A DNA stretch of 46,807 bases from assembly GCF_002894645.1 (NCBI RefSeq), contig NZ_NCQY01000013.1:33360-80166 (forward strand). Reading direction: 5' to 3'. Shown piece after piece: positions 3,317 to 46,807 of this stretch. Under the pieces are notes generated by a model. That model saw only the letters and a program-made list of their open reading frames with translations, was not told the origin of the DNA and made no database searches. Both the position numbers and the translations under genes were made by a program. Each line of letters opens with the position of its first letter. Position 1 is the stretch's first letter. The stretch is from Salinibacter altiplanensis. GTDB lineage: Bacteria > Bacteroidota > Rhodothermia > Rhodothermales > Salinibacteraceae.

Positions 3317-3823
3317 ATGCCCATGGCACGTCGTGGTTTGTGCGTTCTTCTCCTGACGGGCCTCCTGGGGCCCGCGGCGCTGGCCCAGTCCGGCCCCGAG
3401 TCGGTGCCGGCCGAAGAAGAGGCCGTTCGACGCACGATTGAGGCCCTCTTCGATGGCATGCGGGCTGGAGACAGCACCGCGGTGCGGGGCCTCTTTCACG
3501 ACGGCGCCCGCCTACACACCGCGGTGGGCCCGAGCGACACGGCAGCTGTTCGCCGTACCCCCGTCGATGCGTTCGTCGAGGCCGTCGGGCAGCTCCACGA
3601 ACAGGCGTGGGACGAGCGCACGTGGGCGGTCGAAGTCCGCGTGGATGGACCGCTCGCGAGCGCCTGGGTCCCGTATGCCTTCTATCTCGGCGACGAGCGG
3701 TCGCACTGTGGTGTGAACGCTGTGCAACTGGTGCGGCAGGCCGATGGCTGGCGGATTCTTCAGCTCATGGACACCCGGCGGCAGGACTGCGTGGTGCCGT
3801 CCCACGTTCGTCCATCGCGGTAG
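3317..3823 (+). CDS. Exported NTF2-like/SnoaL-fold protein
   Basis: This 168-residue protein has a signal peptide (hydrophobic stretch ending at ALAQSG). It is followed by a single domain that starts EEEAVRRTIEALFDGMRAGD and ends with a WRILQLMDTRRQDC strand. The helix-then-curved-sheet layout and the length fit the NTF2-like/SnoaL or lumazine-binding-like fold. Members of that fold are enzymes or small-molecule binders, so no reaction can be assigned. The gene lies 4 bases after the M1 peptidase stop and probably shares its transcript. ATGs at 3317 and 3323 are both possible starts. Confidence 0.7.
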   Translation: MPMARRGLCVLLLTGLLGPAALAQSGPESVPAEEEAVRRTIEALFDGMRAGDSTAVRGLFHDGARLHTAVGPSDTAAVRRTPVDAFVEAVGQLHEQAWDERTWAVEVRVDGPLASAWVPYAFYLGDERSHCGVNAVQLVRQADGWRILQLMDTRRQDCVVPSHVRPSR

Positions 3824-3913
3824 GTGGATCGGGGGTGTAACACCGAAGGAGTCCCCACCGTGATGAACATGCGTGACACTCACTTGCATGTCCCATCACC
3901 CCCCTGTCCACTC

Positions 3914-4651
3914 ATGCTCCCCCAACCGTCCGTCTGGCGAACCGCGCTATTCCTCGGCCTCCTCGTCCTGCCGCTTCACAACACCGTCGCCCAAGAGCGC
4001 GTCCGGGAGGCCCGCTCTGTGGAGGCCTTTACAGCCGTTGCGTTTCACGTGCCCGGCACCCTTCACCTGCGGCAGGGCGACGCCCGGTCCGTCGAGATTG
4101 AGGCCCCCCGAACGGTCCTCGACGAGTTCGAGGCCGTCGTCGAGAACGGAACCCTCACGCTGCCGACGGATCAGGACACGGGCATTCTCGACCGCCTGTT
4201 CGGGGACGAGGAGTCCTACGACGCGGAGGTAGACATCTACGTGACGGCCCCAGCGATCGAGTCCGCCTCGCTGGCCGGATCGGGCGAGATCGTGGGCGAG
4301 AATCAGATCGAGGCGGAGACATTTTCGCTCAACGTGACGGGGTCGGGCCGCACGACCCTGGACGTGAGCACCGACCGGCTCGACGTGCAGGTGGCCGGCT
4401 CGGGAACGACGACGCTGCGAGGGCGAGCCGGGGCGCTCTCCCTCAACATCGCCGGCTCGGGGGACCTGCGGGCCGCGGAGTTGGAGACACGGACGACAGA
4501 GGTACGCATTGCCGGGTCCGGCGGCGCGGACGTGCACGTGACTGAGCAGCTGGAGGCTTCTATCTTCGGCTCCGGGGACGTGGGGTACCGGGGCCGGCCC
4601 GCGGTGTCGACGAACATCACGGGGAGCGGAAACGTGAATGCGATCGACTGA
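3914..4651 (+). CDS. DUF2807-type exported protein (GIN domain, adhesin-head-like)
   Basis: The 245-residue product has a signal peptide ending at TVAQ, followed by a repetitive right-handed beta domain. The landmark is a repeated GSG turn: SLAGSGE, VTGSGRT, VAGSGTT, IAGSGDL, IAGSGGA, IFGSGDV and ITGSGNV, spaced roughly 18-22 residues apart. This is the signature of the DUF2807/GIN family found on Bacteroidota cell surfaces. The start at 3914 gives a clean signal peptide. In-frame ATGs at 3863 and 3869 would add an unlikely polar leader. Its role is unknown; a surface or periplasmic structural role is inferred from the fold. Confidence 0.82.
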   Translation: MLPQPSVWRTALFLGLLVLPLHNTVAQERVREARSVEAFTAVAFHVPGTLHLRQGDARSVEIEAPRTVLDEFEAVVENGTLTLPTDQDTGILDRLFGDEESYDAEVDIYVTAPAIESASLAGSGEIVGENQIEAETFSLNVTGSGRTTLDVSTDRLDVQVAGSGTTTLRGRAGALSLNIAGSGDLRAAELETRTTEVRIAGSGGADVHVTEQLEASIFGSGDVGYRGRPAVSTNITGSGNVNAID

Positions 4652-27308: not shown

Positions 27309-30300
27309 ATGATGGATTGTGCCGCGCAATGTCTTCAGGGACTGCCCCGATGTCTCAGCTACGGACGGGTTTTTCGAAGGAGTGGGGCGCCTCTCGTGGT
27401 CGGGGCCCTTGTCGCTCTGAGTCTTCTTTTCGGAACGCCGGGCACCGTTGCCGGGCAGAAGACGGGGCGCATTGAAGGAGTGATTGCGGACGCGGAGACG
27501 GACGAACCGCTCCCTGGGGCAAACGTCCTGCTTGCAGGTACGGACGAGGGGACGGCCGCCGGAGCGGACGGCAGGTTCACCATTGCGGACGTGGAGCCGG
27601 GCCCGTATACGCTGGAGGCAACGTTCGTCGGGTTCCAGGCCCAAGCCCGCGACGTCACGGTCAGCGAGGGCGAGACGACACGGGTGGAGTTTGCCCTTCA
27701 GCCCTCGGTGGCCAACCTTGAGGAAACGGTCGTCGTCGGGTACACGGAGAAATCGCGCCGTGAACTAACGACCTCGGTCGAAACGGTCGACGAAGCCGAC
27801 CTGAAAGACATAACGGCCGGGGACGTAACGAGTCTGCTGCAGGGCAAGAGCTCAGGGCTGTACGTGACGACGGGGTCTGGAGACCCTGGGGCCGATCCCT
27901 CGATCCGCATTCGCGGGACGGGGTCCATCAGTGCTGGTGCCGACCCGCTCTACGTGGTCGACGGAACCATTTCTGGAGGGGTGCTGCCCGACCCCAATAC
28001 CATCGAGTCGGTGACGGTTCTGAAGGACGCGGCCGCAAGTGCCCTCTACGGGTCCCGGGCCGCCAACGGGGTGGTGCTCATCAACACCAAGCAGGGGGAG
28101 CGGGGGAGTGAGACCGAAGTGAGCATTCAGGCACGCACTGGCTTCAACGAGCAGACGACGGGCAACTTTGGCGTTCTGGATGGCTCGCAGCTGGAAGGGC
28201 TTCACGACCAGATGGACGGATCGTCCTACGCAGGCGAAGACTTCAGTCAAGACACGGACTGGCAAGACCTTGCCTTCCGGACGGCCATGACCAACAACGT
28301 CGAAGCGTCCGTCACGGGGGGAAGTGAGAACACGTCGTTCTACCTGTCCGGAAACATGTACCGTGAAGAGGGGACTCTCGAAGAGGACGCCCTGACTCAA
28401 TTCGGCGGACGAGTCAACGTTAGCCACTCCGTCACGGAGGACTTCACCGTCGACACTCGTCTCAACGGACGGTATACCGACGAGACGAACAACCCAACGG
28501 GGGCCCTCTACGAAGCGTACACGAACCTTCCGTGGGACGCACCCCGATCGGAGGACGGCTCTCTCCGCACCGGACGGGAAAGTGACTGGGTGGGGCGGGA
28601 CAACACGAATTTTCTCTACCCGCTCCAATACAATGAGGACAAGAGTCGGCAGTACGACTTCAACGGGACGCTAAAGCTCGACTACAGCCTTTTGTCCTGG
28701 CTGTCGTTCGAGACCACGAATCAGGTCACCCTCCAACGAGACGACGCGGACCAGTACCGGGACATCCGGACCCAGCCCGGCAGTGAGAATGAGGGAGAGC
28801 TCTTTAATTCCTATGCCGAAAGCACGACGCTCCTGTCGTCCAGTCAATTTTCGTTCGATCAGAGCGTCGGAAAGCACAATGCAGGCGGGATCGTCGGCTT
28901 TGAGTACGAGAGCAACCACTACAGCGGGTTCGACGCCGAGGGTGGGGGCGTCTTTCCCAATCTCCGTGCCCTCGACGTGTCGGCCGAGGCCCTCGACGTT
29001 CAGGGGACGATCACAAAAAGCAACTTCGTCTCCGGGTTCAGTCAGTTCAACTACAACTACGATCGCACCTATTTCGCATCCGTTTCCATTCGTCGGGACG
29101 GATCCTCGAAGTTCGGGGAAAACAACCGGTACGGAAACTTCTACTCGATTGCCGGCTCCTGGGCGCTCGACAATGAGCCTTTTGCCGATGGGTGGGAAGA
29201 GGTTCAAGAGCTGAAGCTCCGGGCCAGTTACGGGACCACGGGAAACGCGAGCATTGGCGACTTCATCACGCGCGAGCTCTACAACTTCGGGACGCCCTAC
29301 AACGAGGAAATCGGCGCGCGACCGACCCAGCAGGGGAACCCCGACCTTACCTGGGAGATCGCCCGAAAGACCAATGTCGGTGTGGATGTGAGCGTCTTCG
29401 ACCGCGTCGACCTCAGTGTTGACGCCTACCGACGAGTGAACGACGATTTGCTCCAGAACGTCCCGCAGTCCTCCTTAACCGGGTACACCAGCCAGATTCA
29501 AAACGTCGGGAAGGTTCGAAATCAAGGGCTTGAGGTGTCGCTCTCCACAATCAATTTCCAAGAGGGGTTTCGGTGGACGACGGATTTCAACATTGGGTTC
29601 AACAGCAACGAGGTGCTTGAGCTGGCGGGGGGCGCGCCCGTGCCCGACGCGCCCAATGCCAATCAGCGACTGGAGGAGGGAGAAGAACTCCGGACCTGGT
29701 ACATGCGCAAGTGGGCAGGCGTGGATCCGGAGACCGGAGCGCCCCTGTGGGAGAAGAAGATTACGAACGATCAGGGGACCGTGGTCGACACCGAACTGAC
29801 CAGCAACTACAACGACGCCACCCTGCAGATGCTCGGTAGCGCTAGCCCTGACTTTACCGGTGGGCTGCGCAACACGCTTGAGTACAGGGGCGTCACGCTG
29901 AGCACGTTCTTCAACTTCGTGTACGGCAACAAGGTCTACCACAGTGCCCGTGAGCTCTTCGACTCCGACGGGGGATACCTGACCTACAACTACATGGAGC
30001 TCGAGGATGATTGGAGCCGCTGGCAAGAGCCGGGCGATGAGGCCACCCATCCCAAGCCGGTCGCGGGGGGGAACAGAAACTCAAACGACGTATCGTCCCG
30101 GTACATCGAGGACGGGACCTACCTCCGCCTGAAGAATGTGCGGCTGTCGTACAATCTCCCGAGCGCCTGGACCCGCTCGGTGAGTCTGCAGTCGGCGAGT
30201 GTGTACGTGAGCGGCGACAATCTGCTTACCCTCACCGACTTCTCGGGGATGGACCCGGAGGTGGGGCTCGACGGCGTTGCCGGCACAAAGTATCCGATCA

Positions 30301-42942: not shown

Positions 42943-43248
42943 AGATGCATGGGGCAAGGCGGCACCGGGGGTACTGCTCTGCGCTAGGGCTCTTGTTCGC
43001 CGAGAGAGGGAACCAGCGTTGGCAGGGAGGTCCGCGACCATCTAGAGGGACAAAGACGACTCCTCTGGTCGACGCAATCGGAAGAGAGCTCTCTCCAGGC
43101 CGTGGCGACCCGCACGGTATCTTGCTCCAGGCTCTCCTCAGGGGGGCTCAGTGCAGTTCCACGTATGAAGTTCCCAGAACGGGGAGCCTGCTTCCCGAGC
43201 CGCTGCGAAACGGCCCACAGGCGTAGCTTTGCACGGTGTGTGAGAATG
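42943..43248. other. Gap between DUF3472 gene and tRNA fragment
   Basis: About 300 bases of host-like composition contain no gene, repeat or RNA that I can support. Confidence 0.5.
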
Positions 43249-43305
43249 TGCCCGAGGAGGGACTTGAACCCTCACGTCCTTGCGGACAACGGATTTTGAA
43301 TCCGC
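43249..43305 (-). other. Displaced 3' fragment of tRNA-Leu(CAA), probable att site
   Basis: Read on the minus strand, this is a complete tRNA-Leu 3' portion. It has an anticodon stem-loop with loop TTCAAAA (anticodon CAA, 43296-43298) and a long variable arm with GTCC-GCAA-GGAC. A T-arm GAGGG-TTCAAGT-CCCTC and the acceptor strand CTCGGGC plus discriminator A follow. The D-arm and 5' acceptor strand that should continue from 43306 are absent, and nothing complementary to CTCGGGC is found there. This is the scar left when an element integrates into a tRNA gene and restores the intact gene at its other end. Confidence 0.8.
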
Positions 43306-43382: not shown

Positions 43383-43403
43383 TGTGTACAGTCGCTGTAC
43401 ACA
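43383..43403. promoter_or_regulatory. Perfect inverted repeat near the att site
   Basis: TGTGTACAG (43383-43391) and CTGTACACA (43395-43403) are perfectly complementary around TCG. The site lies about 80 bases inside the island. It could be a repressor operator or a recombination-protein site. Confidence 0.5.
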
Positions 43404-43767: not shown

Positions 43768-44381
43768 TTACAGCTGAGCGCGAAGAGATGAATGCTCAAC
43801 TATTGTCCTCTGGAACTCATTTGTAAGTTCTTTATCGAGGGAGTTCAGTATTATCTCTCTGTTAGTATGGTGAAAGTCGTAAAAAGATGAAGTAATTAAT
43901 CTGAGTATTAAGAATATATAATATTTTGAGAGTCGAAGGAAAAGGTTGCAGATGCTCTCGGATTCTTCACGGTTGAAAGATGGAAAGTTGGAAACGCTCG
44001 ACAAGTTTCTAGTCCCCTTACTTTGATTGACGTGAACGAATCCACAAAGGTAAGAATAGTCGGATTTTATATCACTTATCAACTCCCTGTTTTTATCTTC
44101 GTGGTAAAAATTGGTGTTTTCACACCTACTGAAGAGATTTGTTACTGATGGCGTAGAGTATACAGTGGGATCAAAAGGAATAGTTATAAGAGTCAAAAAG
44201 CTTTCTATACTTCTTCGTAATACACAGTAGGCAGACTTATAAGCACCATTAATCCAAGAAAAGACGAAAGAGCTTAGGTCAGATATAAGCTCCTTGAGGT
44301 ATACATTGAACTTTTTGTCGACTGACTTGTCTATAGATAATACCCTCTTAGTTCGAAGTCTTTTTTGATTCTTCGACTCAT
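43768..44381 (-). CDS. Third gene of the ParA cassette, HEPN/DUF5677-like, frameshifted at an A6 run
   Basis: The ATG at 44381-44379 overlaps the stop of the preceding gene as TAATG, a translational-coupling arrangement. Its frame runs MSRRIKK and soon stops. The coding frame that follows the A6 run (44366-44361) is reached by a -1 shift and reads on to 43768, giving about 204 residues. The segment LKELISDLSSFVFSWINGAY, then KSAYCVLRRSIESFL, has the helical Tyr/Arg/Glu pattern seen in HEPN or DUF5677-like proteins, but no catalytic RxxxxH is evident. The long frame has no ATG, GTG or TTG before TTG 44196, so either slippage or a real indel must be invoked. The sequence is AT-rich. Confidence 0.55.
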
Positions 44382-44878
44382 TATTCTGATTCGTTGGCTA
44401 TTCTCCTTATTATTTCATTCCACCCTGTGTTCTCGTCTTTTTTGCCATCAAATATTTCACTTTCACCTTCAATTTCTTTAGTAACTTTCGATAGTGCTTT
44501 TACGAGATTCCCCAGTTCGTGATCGTCGAGACTGTTCGTCTTGCAGACTATGTGGCCTATTATCTCGTACCTCGACTTCTTTCGGTGCCTAGGTATCTTT
44601 AGATCCATTATGTCTTCTGCAAAATGAGCGACATCTTTATTATGCCGAAATACGGACTCATCGGAAAGCACCCTTGGTAGTACACCGACCAAAAAATGTT
44701 TATTCGGATTGGAGGCTGTGTAGTCGCCAACTGCTCGATCAGCTTCAGTTGCGTGTACGAGGCGGTTGCGCAACTCCTTAACACCTTCGCTGAGATTTTC
44801 ACCGCCATAGGAAGACAGGAGCCAGCTAAGTTCTTCAATGAAGTCAAGTGCCTCCTTTAGTTTATCTTGCTTGGCCAT
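44381..44878 (-). CDS. Second gene of the ParA cassette, unknown 165-residue protein
   Basis: I do not recognise this protein. It begins MAKQDKLKEALDFIEELSWL and is mainly helical. The central block, HNKDVAHFAEDIMDLKIPRHR and on to KSRYEIIGHIVCKTNSL, is basic and could contact nucleic acid. An acidic C-terminus follows (EGESEIFDGKKDE). It starts 5 bases after the ParA stop. A GAGGAG inside the last ParA codons stands about 9 bases before its ATG, a good Shine-Dalgarno unlike the chromosomal genes here. As the small partner directly behind a ParA it could be a ParB- or adaptor-like protein; this is inference. Confidence 0.7.
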   Translation of the reverse strand: MAKQDKLKEALDFIEELSWLLSSYGGENLSEGVKELRNRLVHATEADRAVGDYTASNPNKHFLVGVLPRVLSDESVFRHNKDVAHFAEDIMDLKIPRHRKKSRYEIIGHIVCKTNSLDDHELGNLVKALSKVTKEIEGESEIFDGKKDENTGWNEIIRRIANESE

Positions 44879-44883
44879 GGTGG

Positions 44884-45714
44884 TTAGCTCCTCGATATGA
44901 ATTCTCGTGTTATAAACCTGAGGGATTGCTGCAGATCGTTATCGTCTGAGTCTAAAATAGTCTCTTGATCCTCTTGTCGTCTGGCAACCTCTGTTCTTTT
45001 GGGAATTGAGTTTTTGAACAGTTTGTCTTCCCATTTTTGGTTATCCTCAAAGTACTCAAGTGTTTCTTCGTAAACTATGGTATCTTTTCTGGCTATTGTT
45101 ATTACTAATCCCATGAGTGAAATGTTCAGACCATGATTATTTTTTATTGTGTTTACTACTCCATTTAGAAGCTCTATACCAGTCTTAGATATAGGGTCTG
45201 GTTTTACTGGGATGAGATATTCGTCGGAACAGATTAATGCGCTCGCCATCCAGGCTGAAGGCGTAGGAGGAGTATCTATCATAACATAGTCGTACTTTTC
45301 GCCGTCTGGAATCTCCTCCATATACCTGTCTAACCTATTTTCCCGTCCCTGTCCGCTCGCCATTTCAAGTTTATATAGTTCTAAATTTCCTGGCATTAGG
45401 TCAAGCCCATCTTTTATGCTCCATGGATGAATATCATCGAGCGATTTGGGTGTCTCTACTTCCTGTTCCCCCACTGCACTCTCAATTGGTCGAGATTTAT
45501 CGTCAAAAACATCTACAACTGTTGATCCTCCCGACCTCAATTTCTCGATGTAGTCCTCACCAGATACGAGACACTGAGTAGCATTAAACTGTGGGTCTAT
45601 GTCCACTAAAAGAACACTTTTGTCGTGTTCTCTCGCCAAACAGTCAGCAATATTGACGGCGAGTGTGGTCTTCGCTACACCTCCCTTCATGTTAACAACT
45701 GATACGATTTTCAT
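44884..45714 (-). CDS. ParA/MinD-family ATPase
   Basis: This 276-residue deviant-Walker ATPase has KGGVAKTT at residues 10-17 (signature Lys10), LLVDIDPQFNATQC as Walker A', and YDYVMIDTPPTPS as Walker B. There is no N-terminal helix-turn-helix, so it is a type Ib or orphan ParA. These ATPases position DNA or protein cargo by dynamic nucleoid or membrane binding. In this cassette it leads two small unrecognised genes, not an evident ParB or parS. The C-terminus (EVARRQEDQETILDSD, ending REFISRS) is typical of plasmid ParA relatives. The gene is AT-rich and lies in the island. Confidence 0.88.
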   Translation of the reverse strand: MKIVSVVNMKGGVAKTTLAVNIADCLAREHDKSVLLVDIDPQFNATQCLVSGEDYIEKLRSGGSTVVDVFDDKSRPIESAVGEQEVETPKSLDDIHPWSIKDGLDLMPGNLELYKLEMASGQGRENRLDRYMEEIPDGEKYDYVMIDTPPTPSAWMASALICSDEYLIPVKPDPISKTGIELLNGVVNTIKNNHGLNISLMGLVITIARKDTIVYEETLEYFEDNQKWEDKLFKNSIPKRTEVARRQEDQETILDSDDNDLQQSLRFITREFISRS

Positions 45715-46807
45715 GTTCTCATAGTTAAATTTATTGACAAAATGGACTTAGAAGTACACGTAGTAAATTTTTAAGTATCAATTTGCCTGGCTCTCTGATT
45801 TCAGATACCTGTAGTATTTTTGTAGGCCACCAGTTAGTGTCGACATGCGTTCCAAGATGCCCTGATGCACTTTTTAGGTATCACTTCCATGCAACTCCCC
45901 TCAAACGCCTTGCCGCTCACACTGCCGCGCTACAGGGTATGATGACCTATATATAACTATTGGCCGGTCAATATCCAAGGCTCTACAGTCACATAAAAAC
46001 CGGGTAAATCTGTCAACTCAGAGGTGGCCGCTACCCCCGTCCCTTGCAAGAAGATTTTCACGCGGGGGCCAACGAAGGACTCAGGTAGGAATCCGTCCTC
46101 TCTTTAAGGTCATCGCTGACCTCACGCGGATGGTTCCAGTATCCGAGTTGACGCCGTGCGCACTTCCGGCCGACAGAAGATTAGAACATGAACGATCCTC
46201 AAGCTGGACACCTGACAGCCGCCTCCATCCCAAGCAGCAATTTTTTCGCGCGCTTCCAAAAGGGGACCAAGTTGTCCTTCTCCAGTTCGCTCAACTACCT
46301 GAGTCGTTCCAAGCCACCGTAATTGAGCAGCCCGCCGTTTCGCTCCGCACTGCGCAGGCTGAGGTTTTACACATCTCAGCTGTCAAATTAGACCCGCGTC
46401 TGTAAAACGCTCCTCTGCAATCGAGGACCTGAATTCTCCAGCACACCCGAGGCAGCGGCGCATAGGGGCTATTGCGGCGGTCTTATCCGCTGTCAAGTTT
46501 TGTACACTCGCAGCGGAGGAGACATGTGAGAGGCGGATTGAAGGGTGTCCGGGCCTCCATGTCCTCGATAGGATACGTGGCACCCTTTTGTGAGGAAAGT
46601 GTCAATCACCACCCCTTGAGCCATTAAATGGGTAAATTATACAATATAAGGAAATACGTTACATATTTACCCATTACAGAGGGCGCACGAAGGGAGGGAC
46701 AGTTCGCCTACGCTCAAACAGACATCCTCAGTCAAGCTCATGTCCGATACTCAGACTGTGGAGTGAACCCGATATAACGGACAGGTGACCGCTTTCACAC
46801 TGCGGCA
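45715..46807. other. Island segment without a supported gene
   Basis: This stretch of about 1.1 kb upstream of the ParA cassette contains no gene I can support. It holds dyads: a near-palindrome at 45958-45973 (14 of 16 bases), AGGTCA/TGACCT at 46107-46122, and the long-range repeat at 46627-46675. GC content rises again between about 46000 and 46600, so the island may be mosaic. Confidence 0.45.
46627..46675. repeat. 11-bp perfect inverted repeat around a 27-bp AT-rich centre
   Basis: AATGGGTAAAT (46627-46637) and ATTTACCCATT (46665-46675) are perfectly complementary. A further CCATT at 46621-46625 makes a small dyad (CCATT-A-AATGG) with the left arm, giving three copies of the half-site. 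It could be an operator array, a recombination site or an origin-like element. Confidence 0.5.

Follow-up and report, generated by a model that had tools for sequence, protein, structure and literature searches.

ParA-type ATPases have been described in two settings that bear on the locus studied here. In Anantharaman et al. 2013 (PMC3710099), a ParA/Soj ATPase was predicted to be the antitoxin of a HEPN toxin, MAE_18760. The second is ParI, an orphan ParA encoded on a genomic island of Pseudomonas putida KT2440, which, according to PMC9178275 and PMC8544851, destabilises IncP-7 plasmids and requires its Walker motif. We analysed a stretch of 46,807 nucleotides of Salinibacter altiplanensis (NCBI RefSeq assembly GCF_002894645.1, contig NZ_NCQY01000013.1, positions 33,360 to 80,166 of the forward strand), hereafter the window. 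An initial annotation had described there an AT-rich cassette led by a gene for a ParA-type ATPase, followed by two genes referred to here as gene 2 and gene 3.

Our results indicate that this cassette is a copy, damaged in the window, of a ParA-led triad that is found across phyla, for which we found no described function, and which most likely serves in conflicts between mobile elements. Among open-licence PMC papers we found no description of the ParA-gene 2-gene 3 triad, and the whole word ParA is absent from the main texts of PMC9519451, PMC9122126 and PMC13092281. The initial annotation was confirmed in part as an observation, and its interpretation was partly supported.

The ParA-led cassette of the window

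The cassette is encoded on the minus strand, close to the right-hand end of the window, and comprises the following features.

44884-45714, minus strand: parA, ParA-type ATPase; intact open reading frame (ORF) of 276 amino acids (aa), AAA_31, no N-terminal helix-turn-helix (HTH) extension
44381-44878, minus strand: gene 2, predicted to be all-helical; ORF of 165 aa, phrog_12497 at 4.2e-16, AlphaFold2 predicted local distance difference test (pLDDT) 84.8
43768-44397, minus strand: gene 3 remnant, a HEPN-like frame lacking the first ~50 residues; open frame and profile match
44332-44381, minus strand: original-looking gene 3 start, MSRRIKKDFELRGYYL followed by a stop; it shares a TAATG overlap with the end of gene 2

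The foreign composition that had been noted was borne out, with a G+C fraction of 0.407 over 43768-45714 vs 0.646 over 1-43000. The product of parA is a ParA-type ATPase, as proposed: it matches Pfam AAA_31 (E 6.5e-37) and carries a deviant Walker A motif, KGGVAKTT, at residues 10-17, which fits the pattern KGGxxK[ST] and has no N-terminal extension ahead of it. Gene 2 starts 5 bases behind the parA stop, in agreement with the earlier coordinates. With PADLOC 2.0.0, the ParA gave a weak ATPase match (PDC-M28B, 7e-4). Genes 2 and 3 of the window (gene 3 queried as 43768-44256) had zero matches in Pfam, NCBIfam and PADLOC at E<=1.

Gene 2 had been thought to lead, by a TAATG overlap, into a HEPN/DUF5677-like gene. 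The overlap is present at 44383-44379, and its ATG opens a frame of 16 codons only (MSRRIKKDFELRGYYL). The HEPN/DUF5677-like frame (44397-43768) is a different one, so a start of this protein at the TAATG was rejected as out of frame. Its first ATG, GTG or TTG is the TTG at 44196 and no usable start precedes it, a disruption that the initial annotation had overlooked. The frame aligns with positions 53-220 of the 227 of the gene 3 profile (E 2.1e-36), and the profile built in this analysis recovers the same frame (E 1.4e-41). Because many gene 3 homologues are longer (about 230-260 aa) and begin with an MSRxIxxDF-like start, and the profile match in the window begins at 53, the simplest reading of the local gene 3 is that of a remnant which lost some tens of codons internally and changed frame. 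Four residues conserved in the family (R, E, Y and H, see below) are still encoded in the open frame, and the TTG at 44196 lies behind R and E. Since gene 3 is disrupted, the local copy of the cassette is probably inactive or decaying.

The three-gene order is conserved across phyla

We collected 80 genome loci, the best of 307 from a ParA-alignment scan of genome contigs, and 80 viral-contig loci, the best of 115 from a ParA scan; individual loci are given by L numbers. Profiles of gene 2 and gene 3, together called the tail genes, were iterated on the fetched loci only, and their E-values apply to this small set. The results showed that both tail genes follow parA at 54 of the 80 genome loci, while five have gene 2 alone, ten have neither and five are cut by a contig end. 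At the remaining six, gene 3 was found by profile together with an ORF of 166-197 aa at the place of gene 2, resembling gene 2 by eye. At the viral loci, several of which are near-copies of one another, both tail genes were found in 74 of 80, gene 2 alone in two, gene 3 alone in one and neither in three, two of these being cut (L091, L119). Over all loci there were 118 distinct gene 2 and 116 distinct gene 3 sequences. The spacing within the unit is mostly a few bases or an overlap, with starts picked by hand. Chance adjacency of three ORFs is ruled out by the gene order kept elsewhere. A search for the three-gene order had been suggested, and its outcome shows parA and the two tail genes as an operon that is conserved across phyla.

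We also approached the unit from gene 3, in 298 genomes from the genus to which L019 (Pseudomonas cichorii) belongs and in 296 from the phylum of the window. Five strong matches were obtained, all reciprocal and all accompanied by ParA and by gene 2 as recognised by profile. L182 and L185 are new loci, L181 is the genome that provided the L019 seed, L184 is the window and L183 is probably identical with L079. Three weak matches (L186-L188) have neither ParA nor gene 2. A gene 2 search of the 296 genomes of the window's phylum returned the window and two matches at E 0.005 and 0.009. Among phages, tblastn with gene 2 gave nothing useful and one prophage-type gene 3 had no match. The unit is present in 2 of the 298 genomes of the L019 genus, the seed included, and in 133 of 5426 complete Escherichia coli genomes; a Fusobacterium record also carries it. 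Its distribution is therefore rare and patchy. ParA relatives from Acinetobacter, Salmonella and Listeria belong to ordinary ParA-ParB or other pairs without the tail genes. At two Epulopiscium loci (L076, L082), further ParA copies stand behind gene 2 where gene 3 would otherwise be, and several related ParA genes thus lie in a row.

A ParA tree of 146 rows was built with a quick method and rooted at the midpoint, and each row was labelled for the presence of a tail, that is, gene 2 or gene 3. The label changes 6 times on the tree vs 24.2 times after shuffling, and none of 500 shuffles was as low. One clade of 124 rows (support 95 in the Shimodaira-Hasegawa-like approximate likelihood ratio test, SH-aLRT) holds 117 of the 120 tail-bearing rows and seven without a tail, two of these cut. 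The ParA of the window falls within this clade, in a subclade of 33 rows with SH-aLRT 100. Named bacterial origins of tail-bearing rows are Pseudomonadota, Bacillota, Bacteroidota, Thermodesulfobacteriota, Myxococcota, Planctomycetota, Ca. Hydrogenedentota and Balneolota, and two archaeal lineages are also among the named rows. In a 30-row set from the clade of the window, the three proteins diverge in a correlated manner, with coefficients of 0.70-0.76 between their pairwise distances (Mantel p 0.001).

One ParA group inside the large clade (L069, L078, L085 and L152; SH-aLRT 100) has no tail matches. At L069, L078 and L085, a different second gene of 161-181 aa follows ParA.

Families and predicted folds of gene 2 and gene 3

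Both tail genes match phage protein families directly. For 82 gene 2 homologues (best E 6.6e-113), phrog_6264 matched 55 and phrog_12497 matched 36; for 81 gene 3 homologues (best E 4.1e-163), phrog_7540 matched 33, phrog_12265 matched 28 and phrog_22935 matched 6. The matched PHROG entries have no annotated function. Sequence searches of the PDB with genes 2 and 3 gave nothing useful.

The initial annotation had recognised no ParB in the cassette, and its reading as an undescribed system turned on gene 2 not being a known ParB/ParG-type partner with a parS site. In the profile libraries searched, this holds so far, although proteins that bind centromeres are diverse: eight Pfam families were matched by the 82 gene 2 members, neither ParB nor ribbon-helix-helix among them, and gene 2 was not matched as ParB or ParG. 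Its model (pLDDT 84.8) consists of helices, and searches with Foldseek and VIA-align were weak, the best being an unconvincing match to DdrC (Z 5.3, root-mean-square deviation (rmsd) 4.3, 94 residues aligned). With the order conserved and no parS-like repeats seen (see below), the claim of an undescribed unit of mobile elements holds so far.

The model of a gene 3 homologue (L012) has a pLDDT of 95 and is all helical. VIA-align ranks a HEPN protein first, namely 2hsb (Z 10.3, rmsd 3.1, 123 residues aligned); further entries with HEPN in the title are 3o10 (Z 9.4, rmsd 3.1, 126 aligned), 4nqf (8.8) and 1wol (8.1). Receptor and rhodopsin bundles score alike, and the modelled helical bundle of gene 3 is for this reason no more than compatible with a HEPN fold. 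Four positions are nearly invariant in the 116 distinct gene 3 sequences: R in 115, E in 114, Y in 113 and H in all 116. A canonical HEPN RNase was rejected for gene 3, as the motif is rare and the local copy truncated.

Seven Pfam families reached E 0.01 on any of the 81 gene 3 proteins, with no HEPN family among them. The nearest Pfam likeness is DUF5677 (PF18928), which reached E<=0.01 in 8 of the 81, with 1.6e-5 as the best value; in two members with known scores it stays below the family cut-off. The model of MAE_28990/MAE_18760-like HEPN proteins (PF18737), which we take to cover MAE_18760 as well, matched none of the 81 at E<=0.01. In nine genomes that bear the module, PF18737 matched three other genes, none of them adjoined by ParA or by matches to the gene 2 or gene 3 profile. 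By the tests made, gene 3 thus appears not to belong to the MAE_18760 family.

Proposed function and alternative explanations

We give about an even chance to the reading that the unit is a conflict module which integrated elements, both prophages and chromosomal islands, carry, with ParA as the switch and gene 3 as the effector. Because it is hardly ever found on plasmids, it is probably a weapon or switch in such conflicts and not a machine for sorting plasmids. The ParA ATPase would cycle between an ATP-bound, DNA-associated state and a released state, and act as a sensor or brake. Gene 2, which is small, mostly basic and helical, would couple ParA to gene 3. The gene 3 protein, a HEPN-like bundle with R, E, Y and H, would be the effector, freed or activated once the ParA cycle is upset by the entry of a phage or another element, and the outcome would be exclusion or abortive infection. 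The data show directly that the order is kept, that the tail genes are tied to one ParA clade, that the three proteins diverge together, that residues of gene 3 are conserved and that the unit is located in prophages and islands and is rare in plasmid records; from the sequences we infer an interaction of the three proteins, an enzymatic gene 3 and a defensive outcome.

The neighbourhood is consistent with such a role. In two E. coli genomes, the unit lies at a tRNA-Ser between hsdR-darG-darT-hsdS-hsdM and a region with Ag43, antirestriction and CbtA genes. Ten neighbours picked by hand include, by PADLOC, a DRT reverse transcriptase (L024), an ATPase like PDC-M07A/HEC-01A (L020) and a type I methylase-like protein (L017). 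Pfam was run on 136 of 150 neighbouring proteins from 47 of 66 genome loci and on 137 of 150 from 58 of 76 viral loci; these tallies were preferred to an integrase pattern of ours, which was so strict that it matched at 11 of 142 loci. The genome set contained 6 Phage_integrase and 4 Resolvase matches, and the viral set 14 Phage_integrase, 7 HTH_3 and 4 Peptidase_S24 matches; on viral contigs, integrase and repressor genes are often close to the unit. The suggested association with islands or defence loci was seen in part: restriction/DarTG genes and integrases do occur nearby, and so do defence genes among the neighbours chosen by hand, without a background control.

Several observations weigh against a conflict module. 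Six of the ten hand-picked neighbours match nothing in PADLOC and that of L016 matches weakly, again with no background control, and PADLOC 2.0.0 has no model that matches genes 2 and 3 of the window. Ten of the 80 genome loci have parA with neither tail gene, and three tail-bearing ParA rows (L079, L088, L185) stand outside the main clade. With the gene 3 model, seven-helix bundles of G-protein-coupled receptors and rhodopsins tie with HEPN proteins (Z 8-10), the best Foldseek E being 0.38, and the canonical Rx4-6H motif stands at the invariant His in just 8 of the 116 distinct gene 3 sequences. Finally, on a 5.8-kb Plesiomonas plasmid the unit stands directly behind rep, as in a partition cassette.

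That plasmid speaks for a new partition or stabilisation cassette, in which ParA would move the excised or extrachromosomal element, gene 2 would bind its centromere as an atypical member of such proteins, and gene 3 would serve as an accessory protein or loader. The ParA is indeed of the partition type without HTH, its closest solved structures by sequence are Soj/ParA/ParF, and gene 2 is small and basic (median isoelectric point 9.4 over distinct sequences). Against this, tblastn with gene 2 of the window matched 2 of 72,556 plasmid records at E<=1, the Plesiomonas plasmid, whose ParA ORF stops early, and a 4.8-Mb chromosome-like E. coli record. The same two records came up with the window's gene 3 and with both tail genes of E. 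coli, and a prophage-type gene 3 (L111) had one match in the plasmid collection, a 44.6-kb prophage-like circle; the searches with genes 2 and 3 covered these three types. The E. coli ParA matched 17 plasmid-collection records at 1e-20; nine of the 13 inspected have ParB or other partners and four have the unit, namely two chromosome-size records, the 44.6-kb circle and the Plesiomonas plasmid. Centromere-like repeats did not stand out either. In 112 upstream regions, repeats exceeded shuffles at p<0.05 in two and palindromes in nine, and a tripled 8-mer reached p<=0.02 in 3 of about 366 300-bp pieces from 11 loci, no clear excess. The positive control, F sopC, gave p=0; degenerate and short centromeres, as in ParF systems, and single sites would escape this test. 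Since few true plasmids carry the unit and no such repeats were prominent, plasmid partition is an unlikely function of it and was rejected as the main one, and we consider the stabilisation cassette as a whole rather unlikely. The initial annotation had allowed for island maintenance, partition or defence; plasmid partition or maintenance fits poorly with near-absence from plasmids, and a conflict or defence role, judged from sequence, appears to fit better.

Two further explanations assign a narrower task. A ParI-like incompatibility factor, in which the island ParA would disturb the partition of incoming plasmids while genes 2 and 3 tune it, would account for the position on islands and the rarity on plasmids, as ParI is also an orphan ParA on an island. 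We regard it as improbable: the many phage-borne copies argue for a broader role, simple decoy action needs no two linked genes with conserved residues, and parI is ~1.1 kb according to PMC7324555 vs 0.83 kb for parA here, ParI being likened by description only. The lowest probability is given to control of lysogeny or excision, in which the three proteins would regulate a repressor or integrase and attack no other element. The order repressor-ParA-gene 2-gene 3-integrase in Javan1 favours it, as do integrase-like and HTH neighbours within 8 kb at 32 and 22 loci (families named by eye) and the Pfam integrases at viral loci; yet the unit also occurs in islands, beside rep or restriction genes, without an adjoining repressor or integrase, and apart from these two clusters no neighbour family is present at more than 10 loci. 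Returning to the conflict module, we put forward tentatively a more specific form of it, a three-protein immune or superinfection-exclusion system in which nucleoid-bound ParA would report foreign DNA, gene 2 would relay the signal and gene 3 would be an enzyme, a nuclease or other, with a new R-E-Y-H site. If this is true, a principle of ATPase patterning serves immunity across bacteria and archaea and has been missed by current libraries.

Some observations concern individual loci. In the Plesiomonas plasmid p11184 (L004), the ParA ORF ends at 182 aa while tblastn similarity continues through 4476 (3664-4476), and genes 2 and 3 are open. The unit order in this plasmid and in the 4.8-Mb E. 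coli record is identical. Two plasmid-labelled records, NZ_OL790696 (L005, 4.8 Mb) and NZ_CP084075 (L179, 2.1 Mb), look like whole chromosomes. The tripled 8-mers lie in pieces of L005 and L012, just before parA, and of L022. An extrachromosomal element of M. jannaschii (L177) carries a related archaeal ParA followed by a small ORF (28838-29170), without gene 3.

Probable island setting of the cassette

The following features lie to the left and right of the cassette in the window.

43248-43304, minus strand: 57-bp fragment with full identity to the 3' portion of tRNA-Leu(CAA), probable attachment (att) site
43385-43401, no strand: two TGTACA motifs beside the att fragment, from a motif search
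46758-46806, no strand: 49-bp sequence at the contig end, in common with the end of the tRNA-Leu contig, from sequence comparison

The cassette had been placed in a tRNA-Leu island. ARAGORN found no tRNA gene anywhere in the window, so that the 57-bp fragment is all that stands for it there; the intact tRNA-Leu(CAA) sits on another contig of the same genome, C29. An ORF of 236 aa, cut by the contig end, begins ~170 bp behind this tRNA and is read as a putative tyrosine integrase. TGTACA occurs five times in the whole window and two more copies follow the tRNA-Leu on C29; as a guess, the pairs are possible integrase arm sites. The shared 49 bp are a repeat, perhaps the end of an insertion sequence. 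Because of the tRNA-Leu fragment, the integrase-like ORF behind the intact tRNA and the shared contig end, an integrated element is likely. Its insertion site would be tRNA-Leu, the cassette would adjoin one of its att ends and the integrase would mark the opposite one, and the repeat would have broken the assembly, in which C29 and the contig of the window are not joined. An empty-site comparison with a genome of the same genus lent no support to the integration model, as ~175 kb separate the tRNA-Leu there from the counterpart of the window's left flank. The island claim was thus retained as a likely integrated element, with a tRNA fragment in place of a tRNA gene.

At 46627-46675 lies an inverted repeat with two perfect arms of 11 bp, AATGGGTAAAT...ATTTACCCATT, which are separated by 27 bp. 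It is the only one in 45715-46757 with at least 10 bp and arms at most 80 bp apart, and could be an operator, an att core or the end of a mobile element.

Comparison with described systems

When a ParA protein is encoded in an island or a prophage, annotation readily calls it a partition protein. For many genes, those in the 133 E. coli genomes among them, this name is probably mistaken, because nearly all of a ParA clade that extends from Pseudomonadota and Bacillota as far as archaea travels with the two tail genes and is rare on plasmids. With type Ib partition (ParF-ParG), the unit has in common a small ParA without N-terminal HTH and a small basic protein directly after it. It differs in that gene 2 matched no profile of ParG or ParB, repeats of the centromere kind were not seen, plasmid records with the unit are few and there is a third gene with near-invariant residues. 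ParI of P. putida KT2440 is likewise an island-borne ParA-type protein; unlike the triad, it is described as an orphan. As a proven relative it was rejected, the likeness resting on description. The entries phrog_12497/6264 and phrog_12265/7540/22935 match genes 2 and 3 directly and make no mention of a ParA operon.

By analogy, the closest precedent is the ParA/Soj-HEPN dyad predicted in 2013. As described in PMC3710099, it resembles the unit as an operon of a ParA-type ATPase with a helical HEPN-type gene in conflict contexts. The unit differs by an extra conserved gene between the two and by a gene 3 that mostly lacks Rx4-6H, which the MAE_18760 family keeps according to that source. The unit is defined, can be cloned as three genes and offers residues to mutate, the Walker A Lys and the Arg, Glu, Tyr and His of gene 3, and with it the ParA-HEPN conflict prediction of 2013 becomes directly testable.

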